This document shows, piece by piece, positions 40,573-60,022 of a DNA stretch of 64,000 nucleotides. The DNA comes from Rhizoclosmatium globosum (Eukaryota > Chytridiomycota > Chytridiomycetes > Chytridiales > Chytriomycetaceae), in contig MCGO01000087.1 of NCBI GenBank assembly GCA_002104985.1, positions 104,807-168,806 of the forward strand, written 5' to 3'. The notes below the pieces were generated by a model. That model searched no databases. It was given only the letters and a program-made list of their open reading frames with translations, and was not told the origin of the DNA. The translations under genes and the position numbers were made by a program. Position 1 is the stretch's first letter. Every line of letters starts with the position of its first letter.

Positions 40573-41664
40573 TTATTCTTTATTTCGAGAAGGGTAAACA
40601 AGAACAAGCTTCCCAGCGAGAGAATGAGTCAGTATTCCCTCCCGATTCGGTAAAACGTATCCCTCATCTGTACTCCCCTCCTTCGCATCGATCTCGTAAT
40701 CATCTCGATCCATAGCATTCAAAGATTCCTGGTTGGAACCAACTCCAGCTCCATGCAGCACAGCATCATTAACACATTCCAAGTTCCACGAACTTTCAAA
40801 CAACGTAGAATATGACCAGACAGCTTGATGCAGAGATTTTCCATGCGTGCATAAAACTATATCTGGTATATTCGATGTACTCGTTCGTCTAACGATATTG
40901 CCGTCGAGATTCCATTCCACTGTTCCCAACTGATCATCTGTTTTCCATCCGACACCTGCAACCAAATCATTTAATCAGCTTCCACCCGCAAATAAACTTT
41001 TCCAATACCATTGATTAATGCCCAATGCGCCTTTGCTCCCTTTTTGCAACATGGTTCATGATTTCCGTCCTTGTCATAAGCTACAAGAACAACTCCTCCG
41101 TTTCTGAGACAATCAACGACTACAGAATCTGAAATTTTCCAGTCTTTACTATTGCGTCAAGTCCAAAATGACTGATGGCAAGGTCTGCAAGATGTTGGCT
41201 GTGAAGATTTCCCCTTTGCTGAGTACTTCCGATCTTGCGCACGTGCTAAAGCTGATCTACAGCCCGAGTAAAGGCATTTGAATTCATTGTATCAGCGAAC
41301 ATTTTTGAGGCAGCTTGAGTAGGAGGCGGAGGAGGTGGCGGAGGACGATGGGATGGGCCAACGACGTTGTCAGGTGTAGATACGATTGTCACATTTCTAA
41401 CTGAGAAGACCATAGCATCCTCATTATGGGTTGGATTGGGTATGGCGTTGAATTTGGTAGCTGCGATCGTGAGAGCAACGAGACCGCATCTGTTGAACCG
41501 TCAATAATGTCAATTTCAAGCTTACCAACCTACGTTGGGCCCTTCTGTAACCTAGGTGTAACTTGTGAAACATTGATGATCCAGCTGCAGCTACATAGCA
41601 CTGACTGCTGAGCACATGAGGAACATGATCGTCGAATTGAAGTCTCGATTCTCTCCAGATTCAT
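40573..41664 (-). CDS. ACTMAP: Actin maturation protease homologue (frame broken)
   Basis: Homologue of the cysteine protease that trims the acetylated N-terminal residue of actin. The active-site block LQKGPTCGLVALTIAA is restored by a 44-bp intron between Pro-Thr and Cys. Other matches: ADLAISHFGL, RNGGVVLVAYDKDGNHEPC, KGAKAHWALINGI, GKSLHQAVWSY and the C-terminal LVLVYP. An intron (40956-41008) joins IN to GVGW. One A is missing in the run at 41135-41138, after VKTGK. A polyproline stretch (about 41325-41350) lies after the catalytic Cys; in animals a proline-rich part precedes it. Whether this stretch is exon or intron is unresolved. The 5' exon is inferred. Confidence 0.75.
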
Positions 41665-41737
41665 TTTGAGACGAACAGAAAGATAACAATGTATTTAATA
41701 ATAATCCAAGCTTTCATCCTAATAGAACCCCCAACGC

Positions 41738-42863
41738 TCAAGATCTCTGCTTGTTCTTGGCCAATTCTGCACTCAGAATCAAGTTGTCGTAACCATAACC
41801 ATTGAGAGCAGCAATACATCTCTCAGCATCAAACTTATCGTAGAATGTGACATAACCGAATCCTTTGCATGTGTTGGTGTCTCTGTCGCGAGCAACGAAC
41901 TGCAGGCAAAATGTTAAGGCAATCCTCCAGAAAACACCAAGAAAACAGCTTACCACACGAGCAGTGTGTCCGAAACGAGCAATCAAGTCTCTCACGTCAT
42001 TCTCAGTAGTGTCCTCAGACAAGTTGGAAATACGAACAGTCGGCAGATCGTCTCTGTCTCCATCCATTCTGGCACCGCGAGACTGGTCTCCACCAGCTCC
42101 GCCACGCATTCCAGGGGCACGTATTTTCCAGTGGTTCCAACAGCTGGTCCTGCAGCATCCGTCTTGGATCGTGAAAGTCCAGCGAGGGTCTCGTCTCCAC
42201 CACCACCTCCACCAGCCAATATATGTTGATGCGAGTCCTTGAATGGACACTTTGCAGTGAAGTGATCTCCTTTACAGATTCTACACGAGATTTTGGCGCT
42301 GGAAAGTTTCTCCTTGATGATTTTTTCGTCTTCTGGGTTGGGGGCATCCAAGTCGGCGGCTTTGGCAGAGGCAGCGAGCTTCAGTGAACGATTTCTCCGA
42401 ATGATGTTGAATCAGTGTCTGGCCTGGGGAGAATATGTCAGTTGATTTGACTGACCGAAATCATCCCTTTCATTACCCTGCTTCAATCCAGTACAGTCAC
42501 CAAACTTTCTCAAATTCCTTCTTCTTGCAATTGCTGGGTTTACTTGTGAAGTAACAGTCTTTGTACGAATTTTGGAGGTGACCTAAAGCCGATGTTTTAG
42601 GCCTGGCAACTTCGCAATCCATTCAAGCACCTTCACTTTCTTTCCATCATCATTGATTCGAATGTCAATAACAGTCTTTGTTCCGTCGTCGTTCATAATG
42701 ACTTTTGGGAAGGTCTCCTCTGTTTGGGTCAAAGTCAGTTGGCAGCTTGGAAAGTCTCAATTATCAAACCATCATCGATATCGTCTCCCCATTGACTGTA
42801 TTACAAGAGTTGAGTTGGGTCAGATGGCAAGGTACACAATGTGAAATGGCCTTACGCTGGCAT
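41738..42863 (-). CDS. EIF3G: Translation initiation factor eIF3 subunit G (several one-base gaps)
   Basis: Subunit of eIF3 that helps scanning. Pieces in order: start MPA in an 8-bp first exon, WGDDIDDG, IMNDDGTKTVI..INDDGKKVKV, KIRTKTVTSQVNPAIARR, a GEN.SLKLAAS block, zinc knuckle CRICKGDHFTAKCPFKD, GKYVP, then an RRM (LPTVRISNLSEDTTENDVRDLI and CKGFGYVTFYDKFDAERCI) ending AELAKNKQRS. The frame is lost at 42114-42117 (CCCC needs five C) and 42392-42394 (AAA needs four), and probably at two more sites in the N-terminal third. An essential gene with several gaps argues for sequence errors. Confidence 0.88.
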
Positions 42864-42972
42864 CTTCGAAGTTGGTTGTTGAAAAAAAGAAGACAAAGAA
42901 AACAAACTCCTCCACGTCTTCCACATCAGAGAATTCATCTACAAAATAATATAACAAATGATATACAAGGGG

Positions 42973-43977
42973 CTACTCTATCGTTCGGTCACAATCTTGA
43001 GTTTCGTGTAGTTTCCCAGTTCTTAGTTGATTGATTTCATTTACAATTGAGGCAATGGCCTCTTTCTTTTCTTTGGTCAAAACCTTCAGGCTCAAGATGT
43101 GCTTGCAGCCTAAGGTGTACAAAATTGAGTTTTCCAACATTTACATACTCTACACTTCCGTACCTCGAGCCAAAAGCTGAGCGCAGATTGATTGCTCCGG
43201 TTTAGTGTGGTTCTTCTCTTGTTTCAGGCCTTCAGAATTAGGTATTTAGGGGAAATCGTATACTCAGTGGGACAGAATGATTTTGGCTCGTTTGTAGAAT
43301 CAAATTCAATATTTCTGTATGCTAAAGCTGCTGAATCATTCCGTTCATGTCCTTGAGGGGGTTTTGATTTTGGTAAATCCAGTTCAGGTTCAAGTTGCAA
43401 AAGTTGTGAAGGCGTCAATCGTTCTTATCATCACTATTTCTGCTGCTCGAACTCAATTACTGCCACTACTTGTTGGCGAGCCATGTTGTTGATGGATCTT
43501 CAGCAAATCTGAAGGCGTGATCCGATTCACTGAGTTTGCAATCACAGGTGTCGATGGCTTTCCAATCTTGAAGAAGTTTGTGGCATGGATTTTGTGTAAA
43601 TGGCCATGTGTTTGTTTCTGGTTCCGATCGGAGGAAGTATGTGCTTGGTTGGGAAAACCATCAGAACGCTGCACTGGTCCAACGAGCTGCTGATATGTAG
43701 CTAAAGGCTTTGAAACAAAAGGATAATACTCCGACAGTTGAAGATTCTGAAGTGAAGCAAAACCAAGTTGGAATGGTATATTGAAGTTGTTGTAGTCCCA
43801 TGGGTTAAAAGAGACATTGTGCACATCTTGAAGCGATGAGTAAATTGGGTTGTTTGCTTCAACACTGGAGGGAACCAGAGGAGGGACTACCGACAGGAGT
43901 GATATCAGAGGATCCGTAAATCCCTCCGCCTCATCCGGCTCTCTCAATGAAGGAAGTTCGATAGTGTGTGGGAACAT
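42973..43977 (-). CDS. Divergent member of the bHLH cluster lacking a visible bHLH
   Basis: First (most 3') gene of the array. The 174-residue N-terminal ORF (43453-43977) is disordered and ends in the cluster motif NRITPSDLLKIH; a second frame (43224-43418) has another copy, LTPSQLLQLEPEL. Downstream pieces read KNHTKPEQSICAQLLARG, then after a 60-bp intron CKHILSLKVLTKEKKEAIASIV, to a stop at 42973. No basic region or helix-loop-helix is seen. Either the C-terminus was replaced, or the downstream part belongs to another gene. At least one frame break is needed to join the parts. The function is unknown. Confidence 0.45.
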
Positions 43978-44082
43978 GAACTTTGCGAGATGGTTCTGAT
44001 AGCTTAGTTATTTCCGGGAAATAGAGTTGGTGCCCCCAGTGCCCCAATCGATAATAAGGCAGTTGTCCTCAATATTAATTTA

Positions 44083-45771
44083 TTACAAACCCATCTGCTT
44101 CTTCAACGTATTAACTTCATTTTCTAATGTCGACAAGAGCTGCGACTTTTCTTGTTCCATTCGTTGAAGTTCAGCAATATAATTCAAAGCACCTTCAAGC
44201 ATTTGCTCCTTTGACGCATTCTTGACAGGATTCCCGGTAAGATCTTTGATTTGGGCGTAATTCGACCTCATCAAATCTCGTCGATTCTTTTCTGCCTCTT
44301 TCCGGTATTCTCTGCGATCCACTTCAGGTTTGGGTTTTCTATAGTGCAGATGTATGAGCAATACTATTGATTTAGAAGAAGTTTACACACCGGCCACGTT
44401 TTCGTGGTGCTAGAATTGGTATAGTGCCTGAACCGATCTTTCCATTCTCAGAGATACCATCATTGGGAGACGCAGTTGTTTCCGTATAATTATGCGCAGC
44501 TGAAGTTGCATCGGGTGAAGACCGTACTTCTGAAGACTGCCTTGGAGCCTGTATGGTCACCACTTCGAGCGATTGTGACGGTGGTGTTTGAGTTGCCGCA
44601 ATCGGTTCTGATATACTCTGAGGAATTGGAAATTGGGCCGACTGGGATTCCAAGAAATTCGGTTTGGGTGAGGAATATTGAGGATGGGGTTTGAAATTTT
44701 GAAATTGCATTGGCTTTACGTTTACAATAGGCGGATTATATACTGCCGAAATAGGGCCGTTTGATGAAATTAGATTGTCAGGCAATAATTGACCGTGTGC
44801 TCCATTATCATCCTCAATTCCAGAGCTTGTTGCAAGGGGGTGAACACCAACGCCAGGCATCGATAATGACTTCCGAGGAACCGTAAATTGACTTTGTGGA
44901 TATTGCGACTGATAAGGAGAGGGGTTCACTCTCGGCGATGCAGGCGAAGACTGAACGATATGGGAATTATGGTTATAGAACGGATTCGGAGACTTGGGTT
45001 TGAATTGAATTGGATTTGGCGCGAATTAAGAGGCTGAGATGGAGTCATTAAAGTGTTCATAATTTGTGTTGGAGTTGCCCTGTTCATCATTGGGCTTGGA
45101 GGTGCCGCCGTTGTTTGCTGGTTGTTTCGCAAGTATGGATATGGTATCGGGCTTGATAAAATAGCTGCAGCTTCTTCCGAAGTATACACTGGAGTAAACT
45201 GAGGACCAATCAAAGGAGTGAATGGGTTGTTTCCAAAAATTTGAGGAGAGAATCCCATGATATCGGCTTGAAGCTGATTATTGACGACAGGACTCGATAG
45301 AATGTTTGATAAAGCGAAAGTTTGCGGAGTTGGTTGTTCGACACGAGTTGCGATTGGACTGAAGAGCGGGTCGAATGACGAATCGTGGTTATCGGATGAA
45401 TAGGCACTGGCCCGCTGTCTCGGCGAACAGAGAAGCTGCGATGGAGTAATCCGACTGAAGGCTTTCGGCATCGGCTTTGCGATGGCGGGATTTGTGATGC
45501 GGCGAAGCGATGGATCGGCGGGAGGCATCGCGGGATTCGTGGCTGACGAGACGGATATCGACGATGGCAAGATGTTCGGAGCAGCAAAGTTTGAATACTG
45601 ATTGCTGTTCATGCTGAGGAGGGTTGGTGTATCTTGAGTGCCTGACCCTGACCACTGTCGTTGTGGTACCGAACCAAATCGACTCAGGTTTTGGTTTGAA
45701 CTTCCGATCTGTCCCAGCGACTGAAGGAAGAAGTCGTCCACGGCAGCGGATGACAGACTCTGTTCTGCCAT
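44083..45771 (-). CDS. Cluster bHLH transcription factor 2
   Basis: About 560 residues. The N-terminus starts MAEQSLSSAAVDDFFLQSL; long disordered Ser/Pro/Gln region; two motif copies, SRITPSQLLCSP and RATPTQIMNTL. The C-terminal bHLH is uninterrupted: REYRKEAEKNRRDLMRSNY (basic region and helix 1), KNASKEQMLEGALNYIAELQ (helix 2), then a coiled-coil extension rich in Glu/Leu. E-x-x-R-R of the basic region predicts E-box binding. One intron (about 44336-44390) joins the nuclear-localisation-like PRKRGR to KPKPEVD. The frame shifts by one base near 45000-45015 (FNS to KPKSPNPF). Confidence 0.8.
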
Positions 45772-45811
45772 TTTTAGAAATTTCCGAAAATGCGTGCCCC
45801 CTGTGTTTGTT

Positions 45812-47334
45812 TTATTGGTTTTCCTTGGTCTGGCCCAACCTGTCCCTTAATATACTGATCTCTGCCTCTAGTGCTTTTGCTTCAGTCTCCTTCTCCTTCT
45901 CGGCCTGCTGTAATTCAGTGATATGATCGAAGGCTGGGACACTAGTCAGGACAATGTTTCATATACAAGCTCCAACTCACCGAGCTCCAGAAGACGTTCC
46001 TTCGAAGCTTGCTTGACTGGAATCTTTACCAATTCCTTAATAGTGTCAAAACCTGTCTTCAGCATATTTCGGCGCTGCTTTTCGGCTTCTTTCCGGTATT
46101 CTCGCCTTTTCTCAGCTTGATCATTCGGCTTTCGTCGTCTAAATCAATCAAGTAAGCATGACGAAGACAAAGAACGAAATACGAACTCAGTGTTGGTTGT
46201 TGGCTTTCGTTTGGGAGATGGTGGATAGGGAGTCAGGAAATTTGAAGAGTCAACACCAACAGCTGTGTTTAGCAGCTCCATTGGAGTCATTCTCTGAGAT
46301 TGGTTGAAATTTGAATCGGCTATCATAGACACATTTGTGGCAGGAAGCAGAGTTTTCATGGCAGAAGATTGTGGTGTGATGGATGTTTGATTTATCGTAG
46401 GAGTTGGAACTGGCGCAGACATAGGACTGAAAAGCTGTGCAGGATCCAAAATAGTAGTAATCGCATCAGGAGGCTGGTGTCCAAAAACGCTATTTCCTGT
46501 CCCTGCCATTGAAGACGAAGAAAGTGATGATGGAGTTTGTAGCAATCCAGGAGGAGAATAATTGAGCATGGAGGGTGATGAGAGCGTCCGTTGATTCGAA
46601 AGAGGGTCTTGCATAGTCCCAAACATATCATTCGCTGATACTGATGGTTGCTGAAAGTTCTGTTGGAAAACTGGTTCAGACGATGGAATTGGAAACATGA
46701 TCTGCGAAGGCGTTACGCGAGTATCTTTCGCAATCATGGGATTTCTTATACTTCGCAGATGGTTTTGCGGTTTCGGGGAGTTCGTGGTGGAATGTGCAGA
46801 GCCAGCGGAGAACGAGTGAAAGAATGGAGTAGGCGGTGGAGGAGGTATATATACGGGACTAGATAGAAGCTGCTGGTGAGGCAATCCAGAAAACTCTGAA
46901 GGGTTTGTTGGAGCATAGATGTCCAGAAAGCGAAACTGTTGTGTGGGAGTCTGTGGTTGAGGCTGTTGCTGAAAGTTGTTCTGATAATCCAAAGATTCTT
47001 GATAATATGGAGCGTTAGGGAAGGAAGAGAAGGCATCAAGAGCAGATGACTGGAACGTCGAAGTCTCGCCCTTCAAGTTCAAAGAATCGGAATGGGCCTC
47101 TGCTACAGATGGATACGAATAAGAATCGGTCCAAAGCGATTGATCGAGGCTATTTTGTTCAAGATTCTGATCGAAAGACAAGTCCGTGTGAGCAGATTGT
47201 TGAAGTGGTTGCTGCGAGAAACAACCAGGATCCATCAGCATATCCGCAAAGATATCAATGAATTCGGCATTCTCGTTTGTTAGGGATATGGAGGAAAGTG
47301 ACTGTAGCTTCCGATCAGAGCCAGTTGGTTCCAT
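45812..47334 (-). CDS. Cluster bHLH transcription factor 3
   Basis: Start MEPTGSDRK. Near the N-terminus an acidic-hydrophobic patch EFIDIFADMLMDPG looks like an activation motif. Gln-rich and Pro-rich middle; motif copies DTRVTPSQIMFPI and QRMTPMELLNTA. The last exons encode KRREYRKEAEKQRRNMLK, IKELVKIPVKQASKERLLEL, and, after a phase-1 intron, FDHITELQQAEKEKE with an acidic coiled coil. The intron splits an Ala codon (G|CC) exactly at the start of helix 2. Only 40 bp separate its stop from the start of the next gene downstream. Confidence 0.82.
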
Positions 47335-47421
47335 CCTTGCTTGGCGTGTGCAGCCAAAAAATTTGATAAACACAAAAAACGTGCTTTTCCTTCTCGTCTT
47401 CGTTTCTTTATTCTGTTACTG

Positions 47422-48374
47422 CTACAGCAAAGAATTCTGAAGCTTTATTCGTAGTTGCTCCGTTTCGTGCTCGAGGAAGTGTATGATGTCGGTCTTTTCC
47501 TTCTCTTTCTGAAGTAATTCAATGATGTACTCCCGTGCTAAATAATCGTATAAAGGAAGGCTCAGGAATCAAAAGATTTAAGTAGCTTACCAATCGTGAG
47601 TACTTTCTCCTTCGGTGCTCCTTTTCCATAGAATGGCAGCAACTCTTTCAGTTTTTGGAAATACGCTCGAAGGATTGCACGGCGACGACTCTCGGCTTCT
47701 TTTCTGTACAATCGTCGCTTTTCACTGGGTTTTTTCTTGCTGTTCACTCTACCGTAAGTACTTTAGTCATAGCTCTTTCAATATAAGTGATTTGGTGATT
47801 TAAACCTTGGCTTTTTGCCTTTAATTGATGTCTTGTTATCGTCTTGAGTTTGATTTGGAACGGCAGCTGTATCGAATGATGTGATGGAAAATGAATTGCA
47901 AGGCACAGTCGGCTTCAAAACTTCTGATGGAGGGGCACTTTGATGCTCAAACAAAGTGGTTTGGGAAGAACAAGAAGCCAGAAATCCACTGTATGGTCCG
48001 ATTGTAAATTTGGAATCTTGATTCTTAAAACCAGTTACATTCTGCTCTATCATTGTTCCATGTGGTCCTTGTGATAAGGCTGAAGGAACATAACTGAATC
48101 TTGTATTGTCCTTGTCGCAGAAACTGTTGAGATCCAGAATTTGTGACGGAGTTATTCGTTCTGACATCAGCATACTGTTGTCACCAGATTCTGGTTGATC
48201 ATGAGGCAGAGCTTCGCATTCCATCAGCATATGAGTTGGGATAAGTATTTCGTCAGCGAATGAGTTGAAATACTCGAGTTCATCCGCTGATAACTGGAGG
48301 TCGGACAGTTTGAAAGCATTCGTAGTTCCAGCAACCGTTGTAACCGAACAAGGCTGAGAGTAATTCTGGTCCAT
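47422..48374 (-). CDS. Cluster bHLH transcription factor 4
   Basis: Compact member, about 275 residues in three exons. Start MDQNYSQPCS; patch ELEYFNSFADEILIP; one motif copy SERITPSQILDL. bHLH: KRRLYRKEAESRRRAILRAY, LKELLPFYGKGAPKEKVLTI, then phase-1 intron (G|CA) and REYIIELLQKEKEKTDII. Basic residues KGKKPRFKSP precede the second intron and may act as a nuclear signal. I see no frame break in this gene, which shows that the family is functional as written. Confidence 0.85.
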
Positions 48375-48519
48375 TTGATCTAGAACGCTTCAGGAGTTTT
48401 TTCTGTTTATAATAGGAAACGTTGGTTTAATTGGTCCATTCAGTGTTCTAGAAGATTGAACTTCAGAAGTAAGTATGAAAATTGATTTACTTTATATAAA
48501 TATGTAGATATATATCAAA

Positions 48520-49876
48520 CTATTTCTTCATAAGCTCCTTCTTCATCGCTTCAATTTCCTTCTCTAAATCGTCTATCATGTTCGCCTTCTCACTTTCGGT
48601 CCTTTGTAACTCGGCAATATATTCAGCAGCTAGTAGATTAATATTAGCGAGAGATATTTGGTGAAATGACTTTGGTTTCATACCTTTTTCCAAGACACGC
48701 TCTTTTGATGCAACACTGTCCAAATTCGACGAACTTGGCAAGACCCTTCGTATTTCATGTAAACTTTGTCGCACCAGTTCGCGTCGTCGTCGCTCGGCTT
48801 CCCGTCTGAACTCGCGTCGACGTTGTTCCGATGTGTTTCACTTTAAGAATTTTCAAAAAAGTTAATCCAAAACAAAGCAAAACTGCGTGGAAACCTTACA
48901 CTGCTGAATTCCGCCTTGGTCCCTCAATACCCTCCAATAAGTCCAGCACGGCATCCCCTCCTGTAACTGTCGTTGGTCGAAGCGGATCACTTCCCTTCGA
49001 AGACGAACGTTCTGGGGAGCTATTTGAATCACTCAACGACGCAGACGATGTTCTTGATGAGTTTTCAGATGTGACGTAGAGAGGCGCATTGGAATAATTG
49101 AACTGCATAACGTCGATGGAAGTATTGATCACGGTCGGGTTATTATTCAATACATTGAATTGATGAGGCTGCAGTTCCATGATTTGTGCCGGGGTAAGTC
49201 GCACTGAAGTGTCAGAATGTATACTTCCAGTGACAGATCGTGAGCGAGAGCCACGTTCTGATGACAATGGACTGGATCTGCGAGTTTCATTCCGTCTACT
49301 TGATGGAATGCTTTCAGATACGGGAGATGATATGTGCACGGAGCTGCGAGCTGAAGTCTGGTGTTGTGGTTGTGGAATGGGGCTTTGAAAGAGGAATGGT
49401 GGCGCGGACACGTCATTTGTGTAAACTTGGCTGGCAAGAGGAGATGCGGCGACAATTCGAGAAAATACAGGTGTTGGAGGTGGTACTGAACGAGGCTGTA
49501 GAGCCGACGGTGGTGTATCCAAATGGCCCCATTCCATGCCTCCTTCATGTTGCTCAATACCACCATTAGGTTGGAATGGATCAAAGTGATTGAAGAACGG
49601 TGTAAGCCCTGACGATGTTCCTCCAATTGAAGGACTCATCTCGGGTCCTATTCGGTTTCGGAGAGCTGCTGCTGAATCAAACTGGAGGGATGTGATCAAA
49701 TTGACCTCCTCCTGAGTCATAATGGAGGGAGAACGCTCGTGAGTACTTCTATGGCTTCTACTGCTCTCAGACATCTGGAGATGCTGTACTTTGAAACAGG
49801 TTTTGGTTGGGTTTGTTGGCGGCCAACTTTTTCGGAAAATTCTTGGATAGGACTCATCGGAGAATTTGCGTTGCAT
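48520..49876 (-). CDS. Cluster bHLH transcription factor 5
   Basis: Start at 49876, or 49774 (MSESSRSHRS), which is more natural. Disordered Pro/Ser-rich body; motif SVRLTPAQIMELQP; Ser-rich stretch. The bHLH follows a 60-bp intron: RRREFRREAERRRRELV, SLHEIRRVLPSSS, SKERVLEK, phase-1 intron (G|CT), AEYIAELQRTESEKANM, and a Lys/Glu coiled coil ending ELMKK. Joining the first intron to the basic region needs one extra base near 48815. 26 bp separate it from the stop of the upstream neighbour. Confidence 0.78.
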
Positions 49877-49902
49877 GCTCCCACAAAACTTCTAATTTCT
49901 AT

Positions 49903-51047
49903 TTACTCTAGTATTTGTCTAACAACTTCAAGCTCTGCTTCAAGCTGTAAAATTTCTGCTCGTTTTGCCTTCTCTGCTTCTTGCAGCTCAAGAATGTGTT
50001 TCATGGCTGAAGGTATTTGTAAGCGATTAAACAAGACAATCCCACAATTACCATTAGCTAAAAGGACATCTTTCGTCTGTTTTTTTCCCGATCGAGGTGC
50101 AGGTAATAAGGATTCCAGCGTTTGAAACGACACTTTCAAGTCATCTCGCCGTTGCTGTTCTGCTGTTTTCCGTTTCAATCGAACTAATTTGGCGTATTCT
50201 GTAGGTCTGCAAAATTATATTTAATTAATTATAATAATATAGCAATAGTTCCCACTCACGATAAGTGACTCTGCGGAATTGCTGGTGTGGATTCAGTTGC
50301 AGTATATTCACTCAAGATACGTTCGAGTTTCTCATTGAATTCCTTTCGTTTTGCTTCTATGCTGACAATGTTTGGAGCATCAAAATGAAGCCGTCGAGGT
50401 TGAGGGCTCAACGGGGTCGGTACGGGAGGAGGTAATAGAATGACATCGTTCGAAGTATTGGACAAAGGAGGAGGGCCGTAATGGTTATAGATTTGTGGGT
50501 ATTGGTAATTTGAAGGATTTGTATAGTGGGATGAGGACGACGAAGGGCTGTGCTGTTCAAATGTAGGGTATATTGGCTCCTCGGCCACAGAATTGTATTG
50601 ATATTGTCTATTTGTGTATGGCTTTGACCAGCTGTTATCGCGGCTGGCAGGGGGTGTTTGAAGCTGAACAAGACTCATTGAACAGGCTTCTACGGAACGG
50701 ATCTCTGACTCCAGCCGTCTGAAGTGTACAGAAGGCGGTGTGAACTCGACAGTGGTGAGAGCTTTGAAGGAGGTGGTTGATTGTGTCTGTGATTCAGAGG
50801 CTGAGGGGGCGCTTTGCTCTTGATAACGAGCCCATTTGAAAGCACCCGATTCAGCCTGTATCTCCGCTATTCCATCTTGATCATCATTCTTTATGCCGTA
50901 GGTGGTTGGTGTATTCGTTGTGGGATACTCTGTGAAGTGTCTGGAGAGACGATCATCTGACGATGCTGACGTTGACAGGCCATACGACGACCCACTGCTT
51001 GAGCGTGATGGATTGTACTGATCACTGCGTTCCCCAAGGCCGTCCAT
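49903..51047 (-). CDS. Cluster bHLH transcription factor 6 (canonical)
   Basis: Start MDGLGERSDQ; 263-residue Ser/Tyr/Pro-rich first exon; then an intron (about 50202-50256) into PTEYAKLVRLKRKTAEQQRR, FQTLESLLPAPRSGKKQTKDVLL, phase-1 intron (G|CC), and MKHILELQEAEKAKRAEI. It fits the general bHLH consensus best. It lacks a clear copy of the R-x-T-P-S-Q motif (nearest FTPPSVHF). All junctions keep frame. Its position inside the array and the conserved intron show it belongs to the family. Confidence 0.83.
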
Positions 51048-51335
51048 CTTTCACTTGTAACTAATCAATTTGATGCCAATTTGTGGAACGGAAAAAGAGC
51101 GTGCAAGACGGCATGATGCGTGGCCATTTTTCCATGAACTGGCGACCTCGGCGCGTGCCCATCAATTTTGCAACCCAACAATCGAGTTTGCCACACGGCG
51201 AAAAGACGATATTCGATACAGAAATATATGCTTAAATTCTTTAGTGTCGATGTTTGTAAGAGAAAACATTATTGACATCTTTACTATAATTATCGACATC
51301 TTGTAATAGAAAGCAGCAAATTATAAAGAAATTAA

Positions 51336-52551
51336 TTACATATTCTTTAGAGCACGAATAGAAGCTTCGAGCTCGTATAATTCTTGTTCCTTCTGCTCTT
51401 CTTGGCGCTGCAGATCCCCAATGTATTCAATCACTGCGGGAATCATCAGTCACGGATTAAAGAGCGTTCAAAATCTCACCTTTCTCCAAGATTTGAGTCT
51501 GGTTTGGAGCCTTGTTTACGCATTCGTTGTTTCTTGTGGCAAAAGCTCCCTCATTTGTGCAAACCCTTCTCTCATTGAATCTCTCCGTGCCTTTTCAGTT
51601 TCTTTGCGGAAAGCACGCTCTTTCAATTCGACTTCAGTGAGGTTGGTGCTATACGCAAATTGGAAGTTGGATTAGCAAGGGTTCGGCGTTATGCAAGGAT
51701 GAACAACTTACAACGACTGCTTTCGGCTTCCAGATCTGGAGTTCTTCCGACTGCTAGGTCGGCTCTTTCTTGACTCTGAGGCTTCGACAGGTCCCAATAG
51801 TGGAGAACCCAGGCCACTGTTGCAAAGACGCTCAACTTGCGTGCCGATGAAATGCTTCCCGATCTTCCCAAGGCGAGAGCAGGTGTTGTCATGGGCGACG
51901 AAGTGAAACTAGTTCTTCTCGACCCCGTTGTTGATTGTGGCTGATCTACCGATCGAATTCGTCAGCAATTGGGAACTTGTATTCATTTGCAGAATAAGTG
52001 TGAGTATTGGTGCGAGGATATGACTTGGGGTAAGTCGGGATGGATCCCGGGAATATGGCGTTTGTTTGAGTGAAGGGCGACGGAAATTGAATAGCTGAAC
52101 TGGTTCTCTTTGTTCTTGCATAATGTGTAATTGACGAGCAGAGTCGTTATGGAGAAGAGAAGCTGGAGTCGCTGGAGGGGCATTGAGGTGAAATATATTG
52201 GTTCGGCTCGGAGTTGGTGGGCATGGGTGTCTCAGTTCCGAAAGAGACAGGATACGTGGGTTCTTGTGTATTCAGGAATGTTACTTGAGATGTAGAGGCA
52301 TAGGCAACAGGATCCCAGGAGAGCTGATTGCCCTGAAGGATGGAGCCTGAGAACTGTGCCATCAAGTCTACAGTTTCGGGGGACAGAAATGTCGGCTCGC
52401 CCTTCATATCTGCATTCGATTGCATAAGATCCGTGGCGTCAGGAAAGAGATACGATGGCCAAGGGACGTCCATTTCGCAAATCGTTTTTCCTTCCCGAAC
52501 AACGTGCACGCTCAATTTTATGGGCTTGGTGCCATTTCGGCTGTCATCCAA
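51336..52551 (-). CDS. Cluster bHLH transcription factor 7 (frame broken)
   Basis: Start MDDSRNGTKPIKLSVHVV. N-terminal part with PETVDLMAQFSGSIL; motif PSRLTPSHILAP lies in another frame downstream, so one base is missing near 52130-52160. Basic Ser/Arg-rich stretch (SRPSSRKNSRSGSRKQS), intron, then RAFRKETEKARRDSMREGF, MRELLP, a one-base loss near 51545, NQTQILEK, phase-1 intron (G|TG), and IEYIGDLQRQEEQKEQ. 288 bp separate it from gene 6. Confidence 0.72.
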
Positions 52552-52760
52552 CTTAGCGCCATACTGTTCCTATTGTAACCTATCTACAAGAATGAAATGA
52601 GGAGCGGTTTATATCTTGCCATTCTGTTCATTCTCCCGATATCCGTGGGAAGTGAGCACGCAATTCTTTCAATCTCCATCCCCACATTTTTTTTGAATGT
52701 TACTGTCGGTTATCTCTATCAGTTCCCAATCATATATTTATTATTATCTATACATCAAAT

Positions 52761-53964
52761 TCATTCTGCATCTTGTAGCGCCTTCTTAACCGCTTCGATT
52801 TCGCTTTCTAGCTCCTTAATAGTTGCCTCCTTCTCCTTTTCTTCCTTCTGAAGATCGGCTACGTATTCATACACAATTTCTAACAAGAGTTGTTGACTGG
52901 GAGGCCGTCCTGGAATTCGAGACTGTGGTAAAACTGTTCGCAGCTCTTCTAATCCCTCTTGATGGCATCTCGTCGTTGCTTTTCGGCTTCTTTTCGATTG
53001 TGCTTGAGTTTGGCGTCTTCTTCTGGTGTTCTAAGAGAGAAAAGTAAGGACAATTGGCTTACGAGCATTGATTGGTCAGACACTCACAAATTGGGTTTAG
53101 ACCGTTTGCGAATAGATTTCTTTTGACCAACTCATGTAGTTTGCGGTGTTCTGTTGGGGTGCTTTGCAGCTTGTGGAAGCGGAGAAAGGCTGCTACTGGA
53201 ACTTCGCTCCGCTAATGTTCGGTTGGGACCCAAAGCTGAAGGCGAAGAAATTTGCGGATTAATCATTGGACTATTTCGGATCTTGGGTTGTTGTGATTGC
53301 GGCCATGATGAACTTGGAAGCATTGGAGGTGAGAAGAGGAAAGCTGGGTTGGCTCGGTTGGAGTTTGAGCATAAGATGGCCCTAAGGCTGGGGAAACTAA
53401 TAGCTGAGAAAAGAAACTTGGATTCAATTGGACTGAAGACATTGTGGCAGCGAGTCCTGATGATGCCGTGTTTGCAGTTGCAGATAAATTGGTGTATTAT
53501 TGAGGAAGGGGCGGCTGATGGGAATGGAATGGAGAGGCATTGATTTGGGGCGGAAACAGAGGAGAATCGCAGAATACAGAATTTGAGCGATGCTGGGTGA
53601 AGTTTAACTCGTTTTGGGGGAACAATGACTGAGTTGACACATCATTGTGAGACAGGCCCATCTGCTGCATCATAATCTGAGACGGAGTAATACGATTCAG
53701 GTTTTCAGTATCGGTAGAATCCAGAGACCAATTGATCGTATCTGATGGGTTGATAGACTGTTGTGATAGAATTGAAGCGAACGAGGGCGAGTTGAGCAGA
53801 TTGTTTCCTGCCAGTGCGGACCCATGAGTTTGATCGAACAGCGTTGCCGCCGTCGGAGGTTCAGAGTGGCGGCATTTGCATCGGACAAGACAGTGGTGTC
53901 CGTGTCCGTGTTCGCCCGTTGTCCACATTTCCATCAACTCGGCCGTGTTGTCCAAGTTGTCCAA
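52761..53964 (-). CDS. Cluster bHLH transcription factor 8 (frame broken)
   Basis: Outermost gene of the array. Start MDNLDNTAELMEMWTTGEHG; motif LNRITPSQIMMQQM at about 53670-53700; then Gln/Ser/Pro-rich text spread over different frames between 53130 and 53540, so several bases are missing or gained. Basic KSIRKRSKPN, intron, KHNRKEAEKQRRDAI, a one-base gap at 52959-52960, GLEELRTVLPQ, and EYVADLQKEEKEKEATI ending in an acidic-basic coiled coil. No intron at the helix-2 position, as in gene 2. Confidence 0.7.
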
Positions 53965-54278
53965 ATCGGTGTTCGAGGACGCCCAATCGCCGCCTGGCCA
54001 GCCAAAGCAAAGCCAGAGCCAAACAAAGTTGTCTCCGAATCAAGTTTCACACTGGTTGAAGGTGCACTGTCAGAGCCAGTGCCGTGAGTGTGAGTCCCTG
54101 TCACCCGTCGAAGGAGCTCGTCTACTCGAATGCATTGCCGGGCTGCAGGTCCATATTAAGGCGAGGGGGCGTTACAGGGCAAGACTTGAACAAAAGGGAC
54201 AAAAGAAAGAGGGTTTCTATTTATCCACGTGATTTGGGTTTTGGGGGTGAAACAATTATCAATCCAAACACACGTCAA

Positions 54279-56204
54279 ATGCAACAGAAGCGAGAGAGTA
54301 GTGCTACCCTGTTTTCCCGTGCTTCAAAGGTACCCGTGATGCAGGAGATTGAGCAGCTATGGCCCCATTCAGTCATTCAGGCTGAGAAGGTGCCTTTGGC
54401 TCAACAACGCCTGAATGCGTGGCGTCACATTGTGGAGGTACGTTGGACCTCCCAACTTAGCTTCAACCTCATAACATTTGCGATTAGGAATTGCTTCAAT
54501 TTGTCGTTGTGATCCAGTCTATCGAAAAAGAATATGCACGCGAATACGATAAGTTTGCTGCGCGCCTCGCTAAATTAGGAACCACGCCACAGAATCCTGT
54601 ATCATTCGGTAAGTAATTTAGTTCTTGTTATTTTCTGACAGCGATACAGAGGAATCAACCGGAATTCCCGTTGAAACCGTTCAAAAGTCTCTGTCAAAAC
54701 TCTCAGACGAGCATCTAAACTTTGAAAGATCCATCAACGACACATGTTACAAGCTTTTATTGGAACTGAAAGCTGAAATCACTCGTCGAAGCAAAGACTT
54801 CAAAGCTGACACGGATTCATTGACGAAAACAGTGACAAAGTCGCGCTCTGCCACAATCAACATGATTTCACTGCATGAAAAAGTAAAGGCGCGTCGCGTC
54901 AGTAACACTCGAGCGAATGACAACTCTTTTGTCGACCTATGGCTCACGGAGCGTGTGCTTTATAAGCACTTGCGCGAAATGATTCACACTGAAAACAAAT
55001 ATCAAGAGAATATGCTTCAATTGTTGAATGGAATACAAGAATTTGACGAAAAAGTGGTAACTAGCGTGAAATACGTCCTTGGGGACTTTTTCCTCGCACG
55101 CGAACATCAACATGATACCATAAACGTAAGTATCTCTCTTCTATATTCATAGACACTTACTTCTCTACTTAGGCTCTTCTTCAAACGCAAGGACTCATGT
55201 AAATGCCCTAGAATCCAGCTCCCCTTTCTCAACATTCGCTTCCACCACAACCATTTTCGACGAATCTGCATGGAAAACATCCCGCAGCTTACAAACCTTC
55301 CCCTACGAAATCCAAGAAATCCAAATCCTGAAACAAAGCGTCATGTCTCGCCAAGACTTTTGGTCGCGAAGTGGTTGGACGCAGGCTTTGTTTGTTATTA
55401 CGGAGAGTGGATATTTGCATTGCTTCAAACGTGTGCATGGGCGGGCACGAGGAGATGAAGTTCGGAAACGTGCTTTGGATAAGAAACCTGTTTTTGGGTG
55501 GGGTCTTGGGAAGAAGAATGTTGGGTTGCCTGTTGTTCCTCCCAGTGTTGAGATTTTGGAGGCGGAGATGCATGAAACTCCAGCGTATAATGACTTGGAT
55601 ACACCAGCGACTTATTATAGGTGCAGGATGACTAGGTTTATGAATTTATGGTTCCTAAATCGAATGTTTTAGTATTTGCTTGAGCAACTCCGGCCGAATT
55701 GCTGTCAACGTGATTCCCGAAAAACCATGTGTCTTTTCCATTGAGCTCTTTAAAAGTCCAAGAGATCCTATCGCCGTAAAGCGTTATGAAATCAAGGCCA
55801 ACAGCGAATCCGAGATGATTGAGTGGGTTTCGTTCTTGAAAGAGAAAATCGAGTTGAGTTTCCGGATTGCATCATATCTTCTCACTAACTGTATCCTTTT
55901 TGAAAAGGTCATATTTGCCTCAGGGACCCCTGAGCCTCTCTTCCTCCCTGAACATGAGATTCTCGACCGTGTCGAAACTGCTGTGAGACGTCCACCGCCT
56001 CCTGTTCCAGTCAAGAAGCCTGTTGCAACTCAAGAGTCCGAATTTACCGTAATCGAGGATGAAATCAATGTGGAGCCCACAACTTCCGCTGACTCGATCA
56101 AAATGATTCCTCAGCAGGGAGTCGGTGAAATCACAGGACGCACATTTACTCTGTCTTCCACTTCTAAAGTCGTCAGAAAAGCCCCAGAGCCGTTGTTGGC
56201 GTGA
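54279..56204 (+). CDS. BAR-PH domain protein, Slm1/Slm2-like (one frame break)
   Basis: Exons 54279-54437, 54488-54608, 54650-55125, 55173-55620 and 55673-56204. The first three encode a long helical BAR/F-BAR-like unit (QRLNAWRHIVE, LLQFVVVIQSIEKEYAREYDKFA, LWLTERVLYKHLREMIH). Exons 4 and 5 encode a PH domain (SGWTQALFVITESGYLHCF, IAVNVIPEKPCVFSIELF, EMIEWVSFLKEKIE). In yeast such proteins bind PI(4,5)P2 at the plasma membrane in TORC2 signalling. Exon 4 needs a one-base correction near 55190 (QTQG to THVNALESSS). A 66-bp intron, multiple of three and without stops (about 55854-55919), may be retained in the long frame. Confidence 0.75.
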
Positions 56205-56306
56205 GAATGGTCGTGTAGATTGGAATTACTTTACTACAGCTTTTACTTTATTTTGATGTGCTTGTTTTTTGAATTTACTTGTTCTTTTTCCGAAAATAGT
56301 CGGCTG

Positions 56307-56810
56307 TTATTTTCGAGTATTGGCTGGTTAGAAGGACTTTTTTAGGCTCATGGAGAACATACCTAATTTCTCAACAGCTTCTGCACAAACACTTGCAAAC
56401 ATGGTGCCATCATAGGTGGATACGATGTAATGGCCATGTGTTTTTGCGACGATGATTCCAGATTTATCCTAATTTCGTATCAAAGGTGCATGAAAAGAAG
56501 GGAATAACTCACGTTTTTTGCGTATAGGGACAAGTTATCTGCCCGAACCGCTCTGTACGCCATGTCCATCAACGTTATAGCTGCTTCACCTGTTCGAACA
56601 TCTCTAGGCGATTCAAACGCGATAAGGATCTTTGTGTAGTCCATTGGTGTAATCTGTATGTGATCCTGTTTCATTCCTGTTTGCGCTGGTTCAAGATCAT
56701 ACCTCAAACAGTGGAGACTTTGCTTTTATAGATCCATCTTTCCGTTTGATGATAGCTGCGTGTTGGACGTGGTGTGTTGAAAGTAGGGCTTCTTGGAGAA
56801 GTTGGTTCAT
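56307..56810 (-). CDS. PFN4: Profilin-4-like protein
   Basis: Four exons: 56703-56810, 56513-56653, 56363-56468 and 56307-56323; 123 residues, a normal profilin length. Matches profilin-4 more than conventional profilin: HHVQHAAIIKR, ITPMDY, YRAVRADNLSLYAKN, SGIIVAKTHGHYIVSTYDG and ASVCAEAVEKL. Profilin-4 is tied to flagellated sperm in animals and lacks strong actin binding. Its presence here fits a zoosporic fungus. The 17-bp last exon rests on splice consensus; reading in another frame would give a longer tail. Confidence 0.85.
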
Positions 56811-56902
56811 TTCTAGAGATTGTCGCGTTTTATGGAAACGAAGAAGGAAGTAAATTTACAAGTCGCCGAGCACAGATTTTATTCAACGTTTCCGTCCAAC
56901 TA

Positions 56903-58424
56903 TTACTTCTTCTTCATAAAGCTTCCACCCTTCTTCTTGGCTGGACCGCTGGCTGCCTTCGCGTCGGGCTGAACAAATTGTAAGATTAATGAAGCAATCA
57001 AGAAAAGTATTACCTTGCGCTTCACACCGGCAGCGCTACCAGCAGGCTTGTCAACAGGCTTGAAGTAATCCGCCAATCGGCCCTGTGTGGTACCCGTCCT
57101 TGTTTTGATGAGCTTTTGAATAGCAGAGCGGACACGGTCCTCACTAAAAAGTGGAATCAGTAAACGATGGAGATTTGAAAAGACAAGATCTCACTTGAAC
57201 CCTTTCTCTCCAACGAGATACTTGACAACACCCTCTTCATCTGGTGCCTCCCATTTGACATCTAACTCAGCAGCATCCGTGACACTCGGCGTCTTGAACA
57301 ACTCCCGCGCTTCCTTATACGGCCAATCCTCTGGAATCGCGTACTTTTTCGTATCAATGTGCTTCAAGATTGTTTCAATGTTCTTGTGCTCCTTAATCAA
57401 GGAGACTGCACGCGTTGGACCGATTCCTTTGATCGAGTCGCAGTAATCACATCCGAGAAGGATACACATGTCAATGAACTGATCCATAGTCATGCCAAGT
57501 CCTTCGAGGACTTTTGGGAGCTCGATTTCCATGACGGGCATTTTACGGGCTTCGGAGAAGGTTAAATGACGCATAAGGACGGGTGTTCCAAAAGTGAGGG
57601 TGTCCATGTCTTCGGAGCCTGCTGCGTATACTTTTCCTGACTTTGCGAGTGATGCGCATTGGGCTTCGGCCTCACATGGGGCCTAAGATAGTTAATGAGT
57701 ATTTGTGTGGGGATGAAGGAATGGGCATACCTCAATGTAAGGCACTCCCATTAATTTAAGCAGCCTTCTGCATTCTTCATTATGCTCTTTTGTAACTTTG
57801 ACTGTACGTCGACTGAACTTATCAAAGTTCTCAGCATCACCTGCAAAGTCCGAAAATGAGTCCCCAACAACAGCAACCCAGAACCAAACGCACCAGCTTC
57901 TTCTGCAGCTGCGGCAGCCTTCTCAGCTCCTTCTCTCTTTTCGCCACGTTTCTTGAGTTCGTTGCTCTTCATGTCCGGTGGCTTTCCGTCAAAGACATAG
58001 ACTGGTTTAATCCCATTTTCAAACATTCTGACTGTTCGATAGAGCATTCCCATCAAGTGACTGAGTGGTTGAATTGAAGCAGAATTGAAGAAGTTTAGAA
58101 GGTCTTCTTGTCTTGGAAGACAGAACTCACCTTGTTGTTTCGCCGGCCTCGTTCGTCAACTGCATTCCATCCTGCTGTCTGACTGCAATCAAAAACTGGT
58201 AGATGGACATGGATGCATCGATTGCGACCTGGTTTAAACGAGTGTGAGTGTGAGTGCGTGAAGTGTATTGAATATGAACTGGTTTTACTTTGCGACCGAA
58301 GCAGTTTGAAATGGGCAGTTCTTTGATGGCTCCTGGTGCATGTTCGGCAATGACTTTGCTGAGTCCGTGAATACCTGAGAACGAGTGAGTGAGGGAACAG
58401 GCAGCAGTTTGAATACGCACCCAT
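56903..58424 (-). CDS. FEN1: Flap endonuclease 1
   Basis: Structure-specific nuclease for Okazaki-fragment flaps and long-patch base-excision repair. A tiny first exon (58421-58424, ATGG) is spliced to [20 protein letters not shown]-domain: [17 protein letters not shown] and [19 protein letters not shown]-domain: [27 protein letters not shown], then [21 protein letters not shown] (helix-hairpin-helix). The C-terminus has a PIP box [12 protein letters not shown] for PCNA and a Lys-rich tail ending MKKK. All key Asp/Glu metal ligands are visible, and I found no frame break. Divergent from TAD1 across 103 bp. Confidence 0.96.
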
Positions 58425-58527
58425 TTTGATAAAGTTTCTTTCTGTCCGTGAATCTGTACAAGAAGTTACTTGGAAGCGATAATAATTCTATTCATTCATT
58501 TTCTCTCTCTATCCGCTATTTAAATAT

Positions 58528-60022
58528 ATGTCAAGTTCATTTCCTTTTCTTCTCCAAATGGATCAGTTGGTTGTGGACAAACTCCTCAGTCTCAAGAAGC
58601 CAGAAGCTACCGGGAAATGGACAGTAGCAGCAGGAATTGTCATGAACGGCGATACAGTTGTGGCGATTGGGTGTGTTTACTGTTTGATCAACAGCACAAC
58701 TCATCAGTTCTTGACAGAACAGGCGTCAAATGCCTCAGCCACTCACTCGCAACTGAAGGAAGAAACAAAGTTGTAGCCGATGGTCATGCAGAAGTGCTCT
58801 GTCGACGGGCGTTCATTCGGTAAACCTGACATCGTAAACTTGCTCCTGTTCCTCTTAACCAACCCCAAAGGTTCCTCCTTCACCAAATGATTCTTGCATT
58901 CAAAAACGAAAAGAGTATCTTTACTGGCACACCCCCAGGATCTCAGTATCCCCTCATCCTAAGTGTCCCAACCACAACATTCCACATGTACATCTCCCAA
59001 TCGCCTTGTGGCGACGCGTCAATGACCTCATTAGATGAAACTCAAACTGAAGATGAACGTTCGCAGAATGAATCAAAGCGACGGAAATTCTTGGATGGGT
59101 CGTCGTCACATTCACAAGAAAGTCCAACGGATCCTGATGCATTCACGAAAGCTAAACAAAGAGGATTGGTCGCTCGTGGTCGAAATGATTATTCATTACT
59201 TGGGGTATTGCGTACGAAGCCAGGACGAAGTGATAGTGAAATGAGTTACAGCATGTCGTGCTCAGACAAAATTGCGAAATGGGGAGTTGTGGGAATCTCT
59301 GGAGCTTTGATTTCTCTTTTTGTGAAGGAGCCTGTGTATTTGGATTCTGTCAGTGTTGGGGATTTGTTTGAAAAGGAGGGCTTGAATCGAGCTTTGGTCA
59401 AAAGAATCGAGGGCGTGAAAGGTAAGCCCTTGTATGATTGCTGTGAATTTTATTTATCTGAATCTTGATTGGCGTTCAGGATTGCCGGAACATTTCCAAA
59501 TCAAGAAGCTTGACATACAGCAGTCCAAGGTTGACTTCCCATATAGCAAGTCATTCCTCGAATCTAAACATACTGACAAACCGTCACCTACCACGTCTGA
59601 TGTTTGTGAGTTCCTGCTCAGCTGATTCCAATCGTCATCCTAATACTTCTGCGAAAGGTCTTGGATGGACGAAAGGTGTCCCACACAATCCCCTCGAGGT
59701 CCTCAGCAGTAATGGACGCAAACAAGGACACGCGAAACGTAAAGGAGAGTGGCATGAAAAGTCGGAGTCTGAACTGTGCAACAATCGATTACGTCTCTTA
59801 TTCCTTGAGCTGATAGACGCAGCTCGTGCCGCAGATGCTCTTCCTGCTTGCTTAAAGTAAAGTGTTGATCCTGTTACCCAGATGCTAATCGTGATTAGGG
59901 ACGTGAATCTTGTAAACGCAACATATCAGGAAATTAAATTGCATGCAAAAGAGTACAATGATGCCAAGAAAGCGTTATTAGATAACGAGACATTCAGAGG
60001 ATGGGTTGTGAAAGAGACCTGA
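58528..60022 (+). CDS. TAD1: tRNA-specific adenosine deaminase 1 (A37 of tRNA-Ala)
   Basis: Exons 58528-58670, 58718-58819, 58871-59421, 59480-about 59600, about 59610-59858 and 59900-60022. ADAR-like deaminase with KWTVAAGIVM, the zinc/proton-shuttle motif DGHAEVLCRRAF, SPCGDAS (first Cys ligand), KPGRSD, and MSCSDKIAKWGVVGISGALIS (second Cys ligand). Near 59600-59620 the frame changes by one base (SDVC to SADSNRHP); either a very short intron or a consensus error. The C-terminal NGRKQGHAKRKGEWHEKSES block fits the family. Nuclear or cytosolic tRNA modification. Confidence 0.9.

Follow-up and report, generated by a model that had tools for sequence, protein, structure and literature searches.

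We describe an array of eight related genes (G1-G8) that lie on the minus strand over 11.2 kb, at positions 42989-54154, of a 64-kb stretch of DNA from the chytrid Rhizoclosmatium globosum (Chytridiomycota). This whole stretch, called the window below, is part of contig C407 in an assembly of 56.9 Mb and 420 contigs. With moderate confidence, we read G1-G8 as an old tandem array of MAX-like basic helix-loop-helix (bHLH)-zipper factors which would bind E-boxes as exchangeable sibling dimers. Two features of the predicted proteins mark the set out among the bHLH genes examined: an arginine at basic position 5 in all the array genes compared and a Glu/Lys pair at core positions of the zipper. Both features, together with a second array of three genes found elsewhere in the genome, are new here.

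Residues that mark the array genes

Ten array genes (G1-G7 and the second-array genes H2a, H2b and H2m, with G8 left out) were compared with 12 other bHLH genes of the same genome. The search of the genome with the Pfam HLH family yielded at least 28 matches at expectation values (E) up to 0.001, and the 12 others are these matches minus the two arrays, near-identical matches on paired contigs being counted once; some of the 12 rows needed manual trimming or splicing. At basic position 5, Arg was found in 10/10 array genes, whereas the others had His in ten cases, Gln in one and Arg in one (C413_2). In the CLOCK-BMAL1 pair, CLOCK residues Arg39, Glu43 and Arg47 contact the E-box beside His77, Glu81 and Arg85 of BMAL1 (PMC4859532). 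From that residue numbering, CLOCK Arg39 takes the site of BMAL1 His77, four residues before the Glu.

The second feature is located at the columns that hold Asn78 and His81 in MAX, which are core a and d positions, His81 interacting with a buried Glu of MYC (PMC7226237). Glu/Lys occupied these two columns in G1-G7 and H2b, that is, in 8/10 array genes and in 0/12 of the others. At the same columns, G8 carries Thr/Lys and C365, one of the 12 others, Glu/Arg.

Over a 21-residue stretch of the zipper, four columns were invariant in G1-G7, corresponding to Glu at a, Lys at d, Leu at d and Glu at e. Simple g/e' charges gave a mean of -0.57 for homodimers and of -0.90 for heterodimers (range -3 to +1); G2 with itself was disfavoured (+2) and G1 with G5 was favoured (-3). 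Because four zipper columns are invariant and these charges separate heterodimers from homodimers so little, pairing among the siblings is expected to be loose or interchangeable rather than selective, and the idea put forward in a first-pass annotation of this DNA, that partner choice among siblings could form a combinatorial switch, is weakened.

Assignment to the bHLH family

The first-pass annotation had also assigned a bHLH domain to seven of the eight genes, and this was borne out by a hidden Markov model search in which G1-G7 exceeded the curated cut-off of Pfam HLH (PF00010; 20.7 bits) with 28.6-40.5 bits. The seven basic-region signatures listed there were found exactly as given, and all eight genes are indeed on the minus strand. 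The domains of H2a, H2b and H2m were likewise above the cut-off, and G8 matched no Pfam family at an E of 1 or below.

Group B bHLH proteins have an invariant Arg13 and frequently His5 (PMC8431614). Glu9 and Arg13, and Arg12 too, were present in the ten array genes compared; all ten carry Arg5 in place of His5, a residue that is frequent, not invariant, in the group. When a profile of G1-G7 was run against the PDB, MAX ranked first (1hlo, E 4.9e-11), and G7 alone also matched MAX, weakly (best E 0.0072). A single-sequence model of the bHLH domain of G7 contained the two expected helices (mean predicted local distance difference test score 81, predicted template modelling score 0.44), and a single helix at residues 43-81 of this model agrees, as do the tabulated heptad core residues, with a bHLH-zipper whose coil continues from helix 2. 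By Glu9/Arg13 the predicted proteins of the array form a group B bHLH family, with a MAX-type build that is assigned by profile and not by a descent tree.

Two other identities were rejected. HES proteins carry a C-terminal WRPW; no Orange domain was detected in the Pfam scan of the eight proteins and 0/8 end in WRPW, so an E(spl)/HES identity was discarded. An INO2/INO4 identity was rejected by profile, as bHLH_INO2 scored at most 16.0 bits (cut-off 23.4) and bHLH_INO4 was listed for none.

Common origin and the second array

Domain identity among G1-G7 was 28-46% (21 pairs). Intron 1 is in phase 2 and lies 16-19 residues ahead of the basic Glu in 7/7 of G1-G7, while intron 2 has phase 1 and falls where helix 2 begins in 6/6 of the genes that have it (G2-G6 and G8) and is absent from G1 and G7. 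When the eight N-terminal tails were compared with one another by BLASTP (E of 1 or less), 10 alignments in 9 pairs were obtained, all of them around the motif described below, G6 and G7 sharing a slightly longer piece around it. Since the introns match in place and phase, the domains retain 28-46% identity and the tails are alike only around the motif, the sequences support the view that the array genes are old paralogues from a local expansion. The common origin by old local expansion and the strong divergence outside the domain that had been proposed earlier thus both stand.

The second array consists of H2b, H2m and H2a in a row on one strand, with their domains within about 3.4 kb. H2m resembles G3, as it has no motif and reads AEQNRR vs AEQQRR in the basic region, the grouping of the two in the tree having a support of only 68/32. 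A tree of 23 domains united the ten array genes with C413_1, from a third locus (support 82/86), and C413_1 grouped with G2 (95/81). At that locus (C413:111763-113347) two adjacent bHLH genes are about 1.4 kb apart, the one beside C413_1 being very diverged. Neither array was recovered as a clade of its own, and the constraints were not rejected, with p values of 0.11 for the first array together (AU test), 0.193 for the second together and 0.325 for both arrays together. The claim that the G1-G8 array alone is one clade is therefore neither shown nor rejected, the second-array genes and C413_1 falling among its members. Because neither array was recovered and the joint constraints were not rejected, we infer that the second array derives from an older one, part of which was copied or split off.

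The G1-G7 profile returned H2b and H2a first, then C377_16 and Calcarisporiella P0005. C377_16 was the nearest non-array R. globosum row, at 66.7 bits with its far coil joined by hand, and P0005 reached 26.6 bits with bHLH_INO4, just below the cut-off of 27.5. Read by eye, C377_16 apparently has an intron positioned like intron 2 of the array genes. A protein search with residues 440-545 of G7 found only G7 itself (deposited as BCR33DRAFT_719120, of equal length and 100% identical over the searched residues). A further search found G2 of R. hyalinum (HDU99_006563, equal in length to G2 and 97% identical), G5 and G3 of R. globosum and one Calcarisporiella protein, and a third returned nothing at E up to 1, the array genes themselves included. 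As the second search missed G7, which the database contains with a length inside the range searched, and the third missed every array gene, the few matches say little on other chytrids.

A motif in the tails

The tails share the pattern R-[ILVMA]-T-P-x-[QHTLEDKS]-[ILM]-[MLF], which was drawn up after the sequences had been seen. It is present in G1, G2, G4-G8, H2a and H2b, with 12 occurrences in 12 N-terminal tails as compared to a mean of 0.003 and a maximum of 1 in 1000 shuffles. A six-frame scan of the window gave 10 matches, all inside the array, and none was found in 11 other stretches around bHLH matches. Genome-wide, the corresponding DNA pattern had 17 matches (13 in the three versions of the array, 2 in the second array and 2 elsewhere), and a reversed-pattern control had 3. 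Matches on C98 and C90 were rejected as further members, their frames being without bHLH.

Selection on the domains and decay of G8

Comparison of the window with its second copy on contig C257 gave 3 nonsynonymous as against 33 synonymous changes in the bHLH-coil parts of G1-G7, and about 94 as against 118 in their tails (gapped codons excluded in both cases). These counts indicate purifying selection on the domain of G1-G7.

G8 gave no sign of such constraint in the allele comparisons. C257 and the window differed in G8 by 4 nonsynonymous and 0 synonymous changes and one stop, and C153 and C257 by 11 nonsynonymous and 6 synonymous codon changes. The window copy has a stop and several gaps, including one of 10 bases, and the C153 copy a one-base insertion. 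The basic region of G8 reads ARNKRR, the Glu being lost, helix 1 and the loop are shortened, and helix 2 and the coil are kept. It has two motifs, RITPSDLL (RIMPSDLL on C257) and RLTPSQLL. The earlier annotation had the eighth gene share the other motif of its neighbours; the sharing was found, but it is not limited to the motif, since the C-terminus of G8 scored 20.7 bits against the G1-G7 profile, with 299 of 300 shuffles reported, at no more than 8.4 bits. These sequence changes suggest that G8 is being lost.

Allelic mismatch peaked at 9.8% in window positions 48001-48500, in the 5' part of G5, the other 500-bp windows ranging from 0.4 to 5.9%. Balancing selection at G5 is not claimed, because the peak is a single 500-bp window and the ratio of nonsynonymous to synonymous rates is below 1.

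Gene models and allele copies

The second copy on C257 is 96.2% identical to window positions 41613-59653, and a third version of positions 40654-45041 lies on C153 (96.8% identical to the window and 97.8% to C257). These versions, 96-98% alike pairwise, may mean that haplotypes number more than two or that one contig is a mosaic. A hand count over the alignment of C257 with window positions 42300-54300 gave 35 single-base gaps; the window copy carries 33 of these, in both coding and non-coding sequence, and relative to C257 they break the frames of G1, G2, G4, G7 and G8. Because 33/35 sit on the window side, within and between genes, they are probably uncorrected long-read assembly errors that affect a single haplotype contig. 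All eight reading frames are uninterrupted on C257, and on account of the frame breaks the models in Table 1 were read on C257 and transferred to window coordinates.

The array runs from about 54154 to 42989. Its presence had been called correctly beforehand, its limits (53964 to 42973) had not. The distances from stop to next ATG on the intact allele C257 were 292, 286, 134, 155, 87, 40 (G6-G7) and 114 bp; the tight spacing noted before was confirmed, with a minimum of 40 instead of 26 bp. The deposited G3 protein BCR33DRAFT_351760 matches our model until intron 2 and then, within window positions 49903-50052, reads into the intron, and it is thus without the last exon, which carries helix 2 and the zipper.

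CACGTG occurs 4 times in the window, and the C257 counterpart of the one ahead of G1 is the sole one in 20 kb. The word GGCAC was found 7 times in the intergenic gaps on the coding strand (0.68 expected) and 0 times on the opposite one; having been chosen after looking, this over-representation was set aside as evidence. The genes flanking the array point to no pathway.

Table 1. Array genes, neighbouring features and the second array (window coordinates unless a contig is named).
Feature	Position	Strand	Model	Remarks
G1, bHLH-zipper	52761..54154	-	456 aa (C257), 2 exons: 54154-53088, 53030-52761	motif RITPSQIM; basic EKQRR; Pfam HLH 30.9 bits; window copy frame-broken
G2, bHLH-zipper	51336..52473	-	344 aa, 3 exons: 52473-51712, 51648-51480, 51433-51336	motif RLTPSHIL; basic EKARR; Pfam HLH 40.5 bits; window copy frame-broken
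G3, bHLH-zipper	49903..51047	-	348 aa, 3 exons: 51047-50260, 50206-50052, 50006-49903	without motif; basic EQQRR; Pfam HLH 35.6 bits
G4, bHLH-zipper	48520..49774	-	380 aa, 3 exons: 49774-48900, 48840-48684, 48629-48520	motif RLTPAQIM; basic ERRRR; Pfam HLH 31.6 bits; window gap at 48836 (exon 2)
G5, bHLH-zipper	47422..48374	-	280 aa, 3 exons: 48374-47806, 47748-47591, 47537-47422	motif RITPSQIL; basic ESRRR; Pfam HLH 28.8 bits; model equals deposited BCR33DRAFT_351729
G6, bHLH-zipper	45812..47334	-	473 aa, 3 exons: 47334-46187, 46138-45981, 45933-45812	motifs RVTPSQIM and RMTPMELL; basic EKQRR; Pfam HLH 29.1 bits
G7, bHLH-zipper	44083..45771	-	545 aa, 2 exons: 45771-44391, 44338-44083	motifs RITPSQLL and RATPTQIM; basic EKNRR; Pfam HLH 28.6 bits; one window single-base gap
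G8, degenerate paralogue	42989..43977	-	315 aa (C257), 2 exons: 43977-43164, 43109-42989	
CACGTG, putative E-box	54226..54231	not assigned		about 70 bp ahead of the G1 start, in both alleles
RRM gene	41738-42268	-		one flank of the array
BAR-like match and PH match below cut-off	54625-56201	+		other flank of the array
Second array	C386:112.6-116.0 kb; counterpart C419:35.5-38.8 kb	one strand		same bHLH family

Proposed working and alternative explanations

In the working that we propose, the G1-G7 proteins would bind E-boxes of the CACGTG type, Glu9, Arg12 and Arg13 being kept and Arg5 standing in place of His5 as in CLOCK. Because all seven share the same polar core, they would pair with themselves and with one another, and since the other bHLH factors are without the Glu/Lys pair, this pair would disfavour pairing with them. 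The RxTPxQ motif of the tails, which may form a short helix capped by T-P, could recruit one common cofactor or kinase, and the diverged tails would give each member a different output. Together the siblings would form a pool, and its mixture, which depends on the genes that are switched on, would tune one group of E-box targets. A more far-reaching version, which we hold to be unlikely, is a closed set of up to seven siblings that dimerise any with any, are driven jointly from one E-box promoter at the head of their array, bind that promoter themselves, give an output graded by the tails and steer steps of the life cycle; the shared Glu/Lys core may insulate such a locus from other bHLH factors. 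There is little behind the further thought, drawn by analogy with mushroom homeodomain arrays, that the allele diversity of the array, with its peak at G5, might serve self/non-self recognition.

Several observations weigh against exchangeable sibling dimers in a MAX-like array. The Glu/Lys pair is not fixed across the family, H2a having His/Lys and H2m Ala/Arg in the core, and the motif is missing from the tails of G3 and H2m, as it is from that of C413_1. CANNTG is not enriched between the array genes (7 vs 6.75 expected). A Foldseek search of the PDB with the G7 domain model returned no bHLH match and one irrelevant one at E 8.4. The tree that leaves neither array as its own clade is weak, with 1/20 inner branches starred, and few outside relatives were found by protein searches, whose recall was poor.

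Genes duplicated in tandem can often do without a shared function, and G1-G7 could be independent homodimeric factors, old duplicates with split roles, each with its own targets or stages and with their closeness as a relic. Tails that are alike only around the motif, a domain identity of 28-46% and the constraint on each domain agree with this account, but the four zipper columns invariant in all seven and the lack of a homodimer preference in the g/e' charges (G2 with itself at +2, G1 with G5 at -3) do not, and we regard it as rather unlikely. MAX and INO4 are each the centre of a known hub network, and the array proteins could by the same token be MYC-like partners of a hub outside the array, such as the INO4-like C377_16 or C413_1, without pairing among siblings. 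C377_16 is the non-array R. globosum row nearest to the array profile and looks INO4/MAX-like; however, it has Val/Ala and C413_1 Lys/Arg at the Glu/Lys columns, so that the shared polar pair is missing, even though the Lys/Arg of C413_1 could still attract Glu. We consider this quite unlikely.

It is more doubtful still that the array is an operon-like unit in which several genes share one transcript from the E-box promoter of G1, a proposal compatible with the other explanations. A terminator and a promoter would hardly fit into gaps of 40 and 87 bp, and one CACGTG stands ahead of the first gene, but short gaps alone are no proof of co-transcription, every gene starts with an ATG of its own and is split by introns, and AATAAA was seen by eye in 3/7 gaps. 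Finally, the frame breaks of G1, G2, G4, G7 and G8 on the window contig and the decay signs of G8 might suggest a decaying relic with several pseudogenes. This is very improbable for the array, given that 33/35 gaps look like window-side assembly errors, that C257 is intact and that constraint on the G1-G7 domains is strong; it holds for G8 only.

Comparison with known systems

It had been stated beforehand that no fungal bHLH cluster of this size was described, and our literature search, which had most subscription journals outside its reach, found no fungal bHLH array. In the accessible main text of the developmental atlas of R. globosum (PMC8887899), the terms transcription factor, helix-loop-helix, bHLH, diploid and tandem do not occur, nor do bHLH or HLH in the accessible text of a study on expanded families in early-diverging fungi (PMC8778642), and a 2012 study of bHLH domains had a model set without chytrid sequences (PMC3502508).

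The MYC-MAX-MXD network offers the best PDB relatives of the array profile. It is alike in the zipper directly after the bHLH, in Glu9/Arg12/Arg13 and in the polar first positions of the zipper core, whereas the array differs by Arg5 instead of His5, by Glu/Lys instead of Asn78/His81, by its eight linked genes and by the RxTPxQ motif, and no obligate hub was identified for it. Of the INO2/INO4 type, C377_16 and Calcarisporiella P0005 come close to the array profile, but both INO4-type sequences have His5 and no Glu/Lys core, unlike the array. The homeodomain mating-type arrays of basidiomycetes are likewise tandem paralogous dimerising transcription factors in fungi; they have a different fold, and there is no evidence of allele-specific recognition in the bHLH array.

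The Enhancer of split complex of Drosophila, with 11 bHLH and Bearded genes (PMC3261227), in which bHLH-orange and Bearded-class genes are neighbours, often under Notch (PMC4575448), is alike as a local complex of related bHLH genes, in arrangement and not in kinship. The array differs from it in being of fungal bHLH-zipper type, with no Orange domain found and no second class of genes. Complexes of bHLH genes are known from animals, in which duplicated pairing factors act in developmental switches. For an early-diverging unicellular fungus to have such a complex, marked off by its signatures from the other bHLH genes found in the genome, would add an independent example of a network arising by local duplication, and the Glu/Lys core of the array gives a directly testable prediction of which proteins pair with which.

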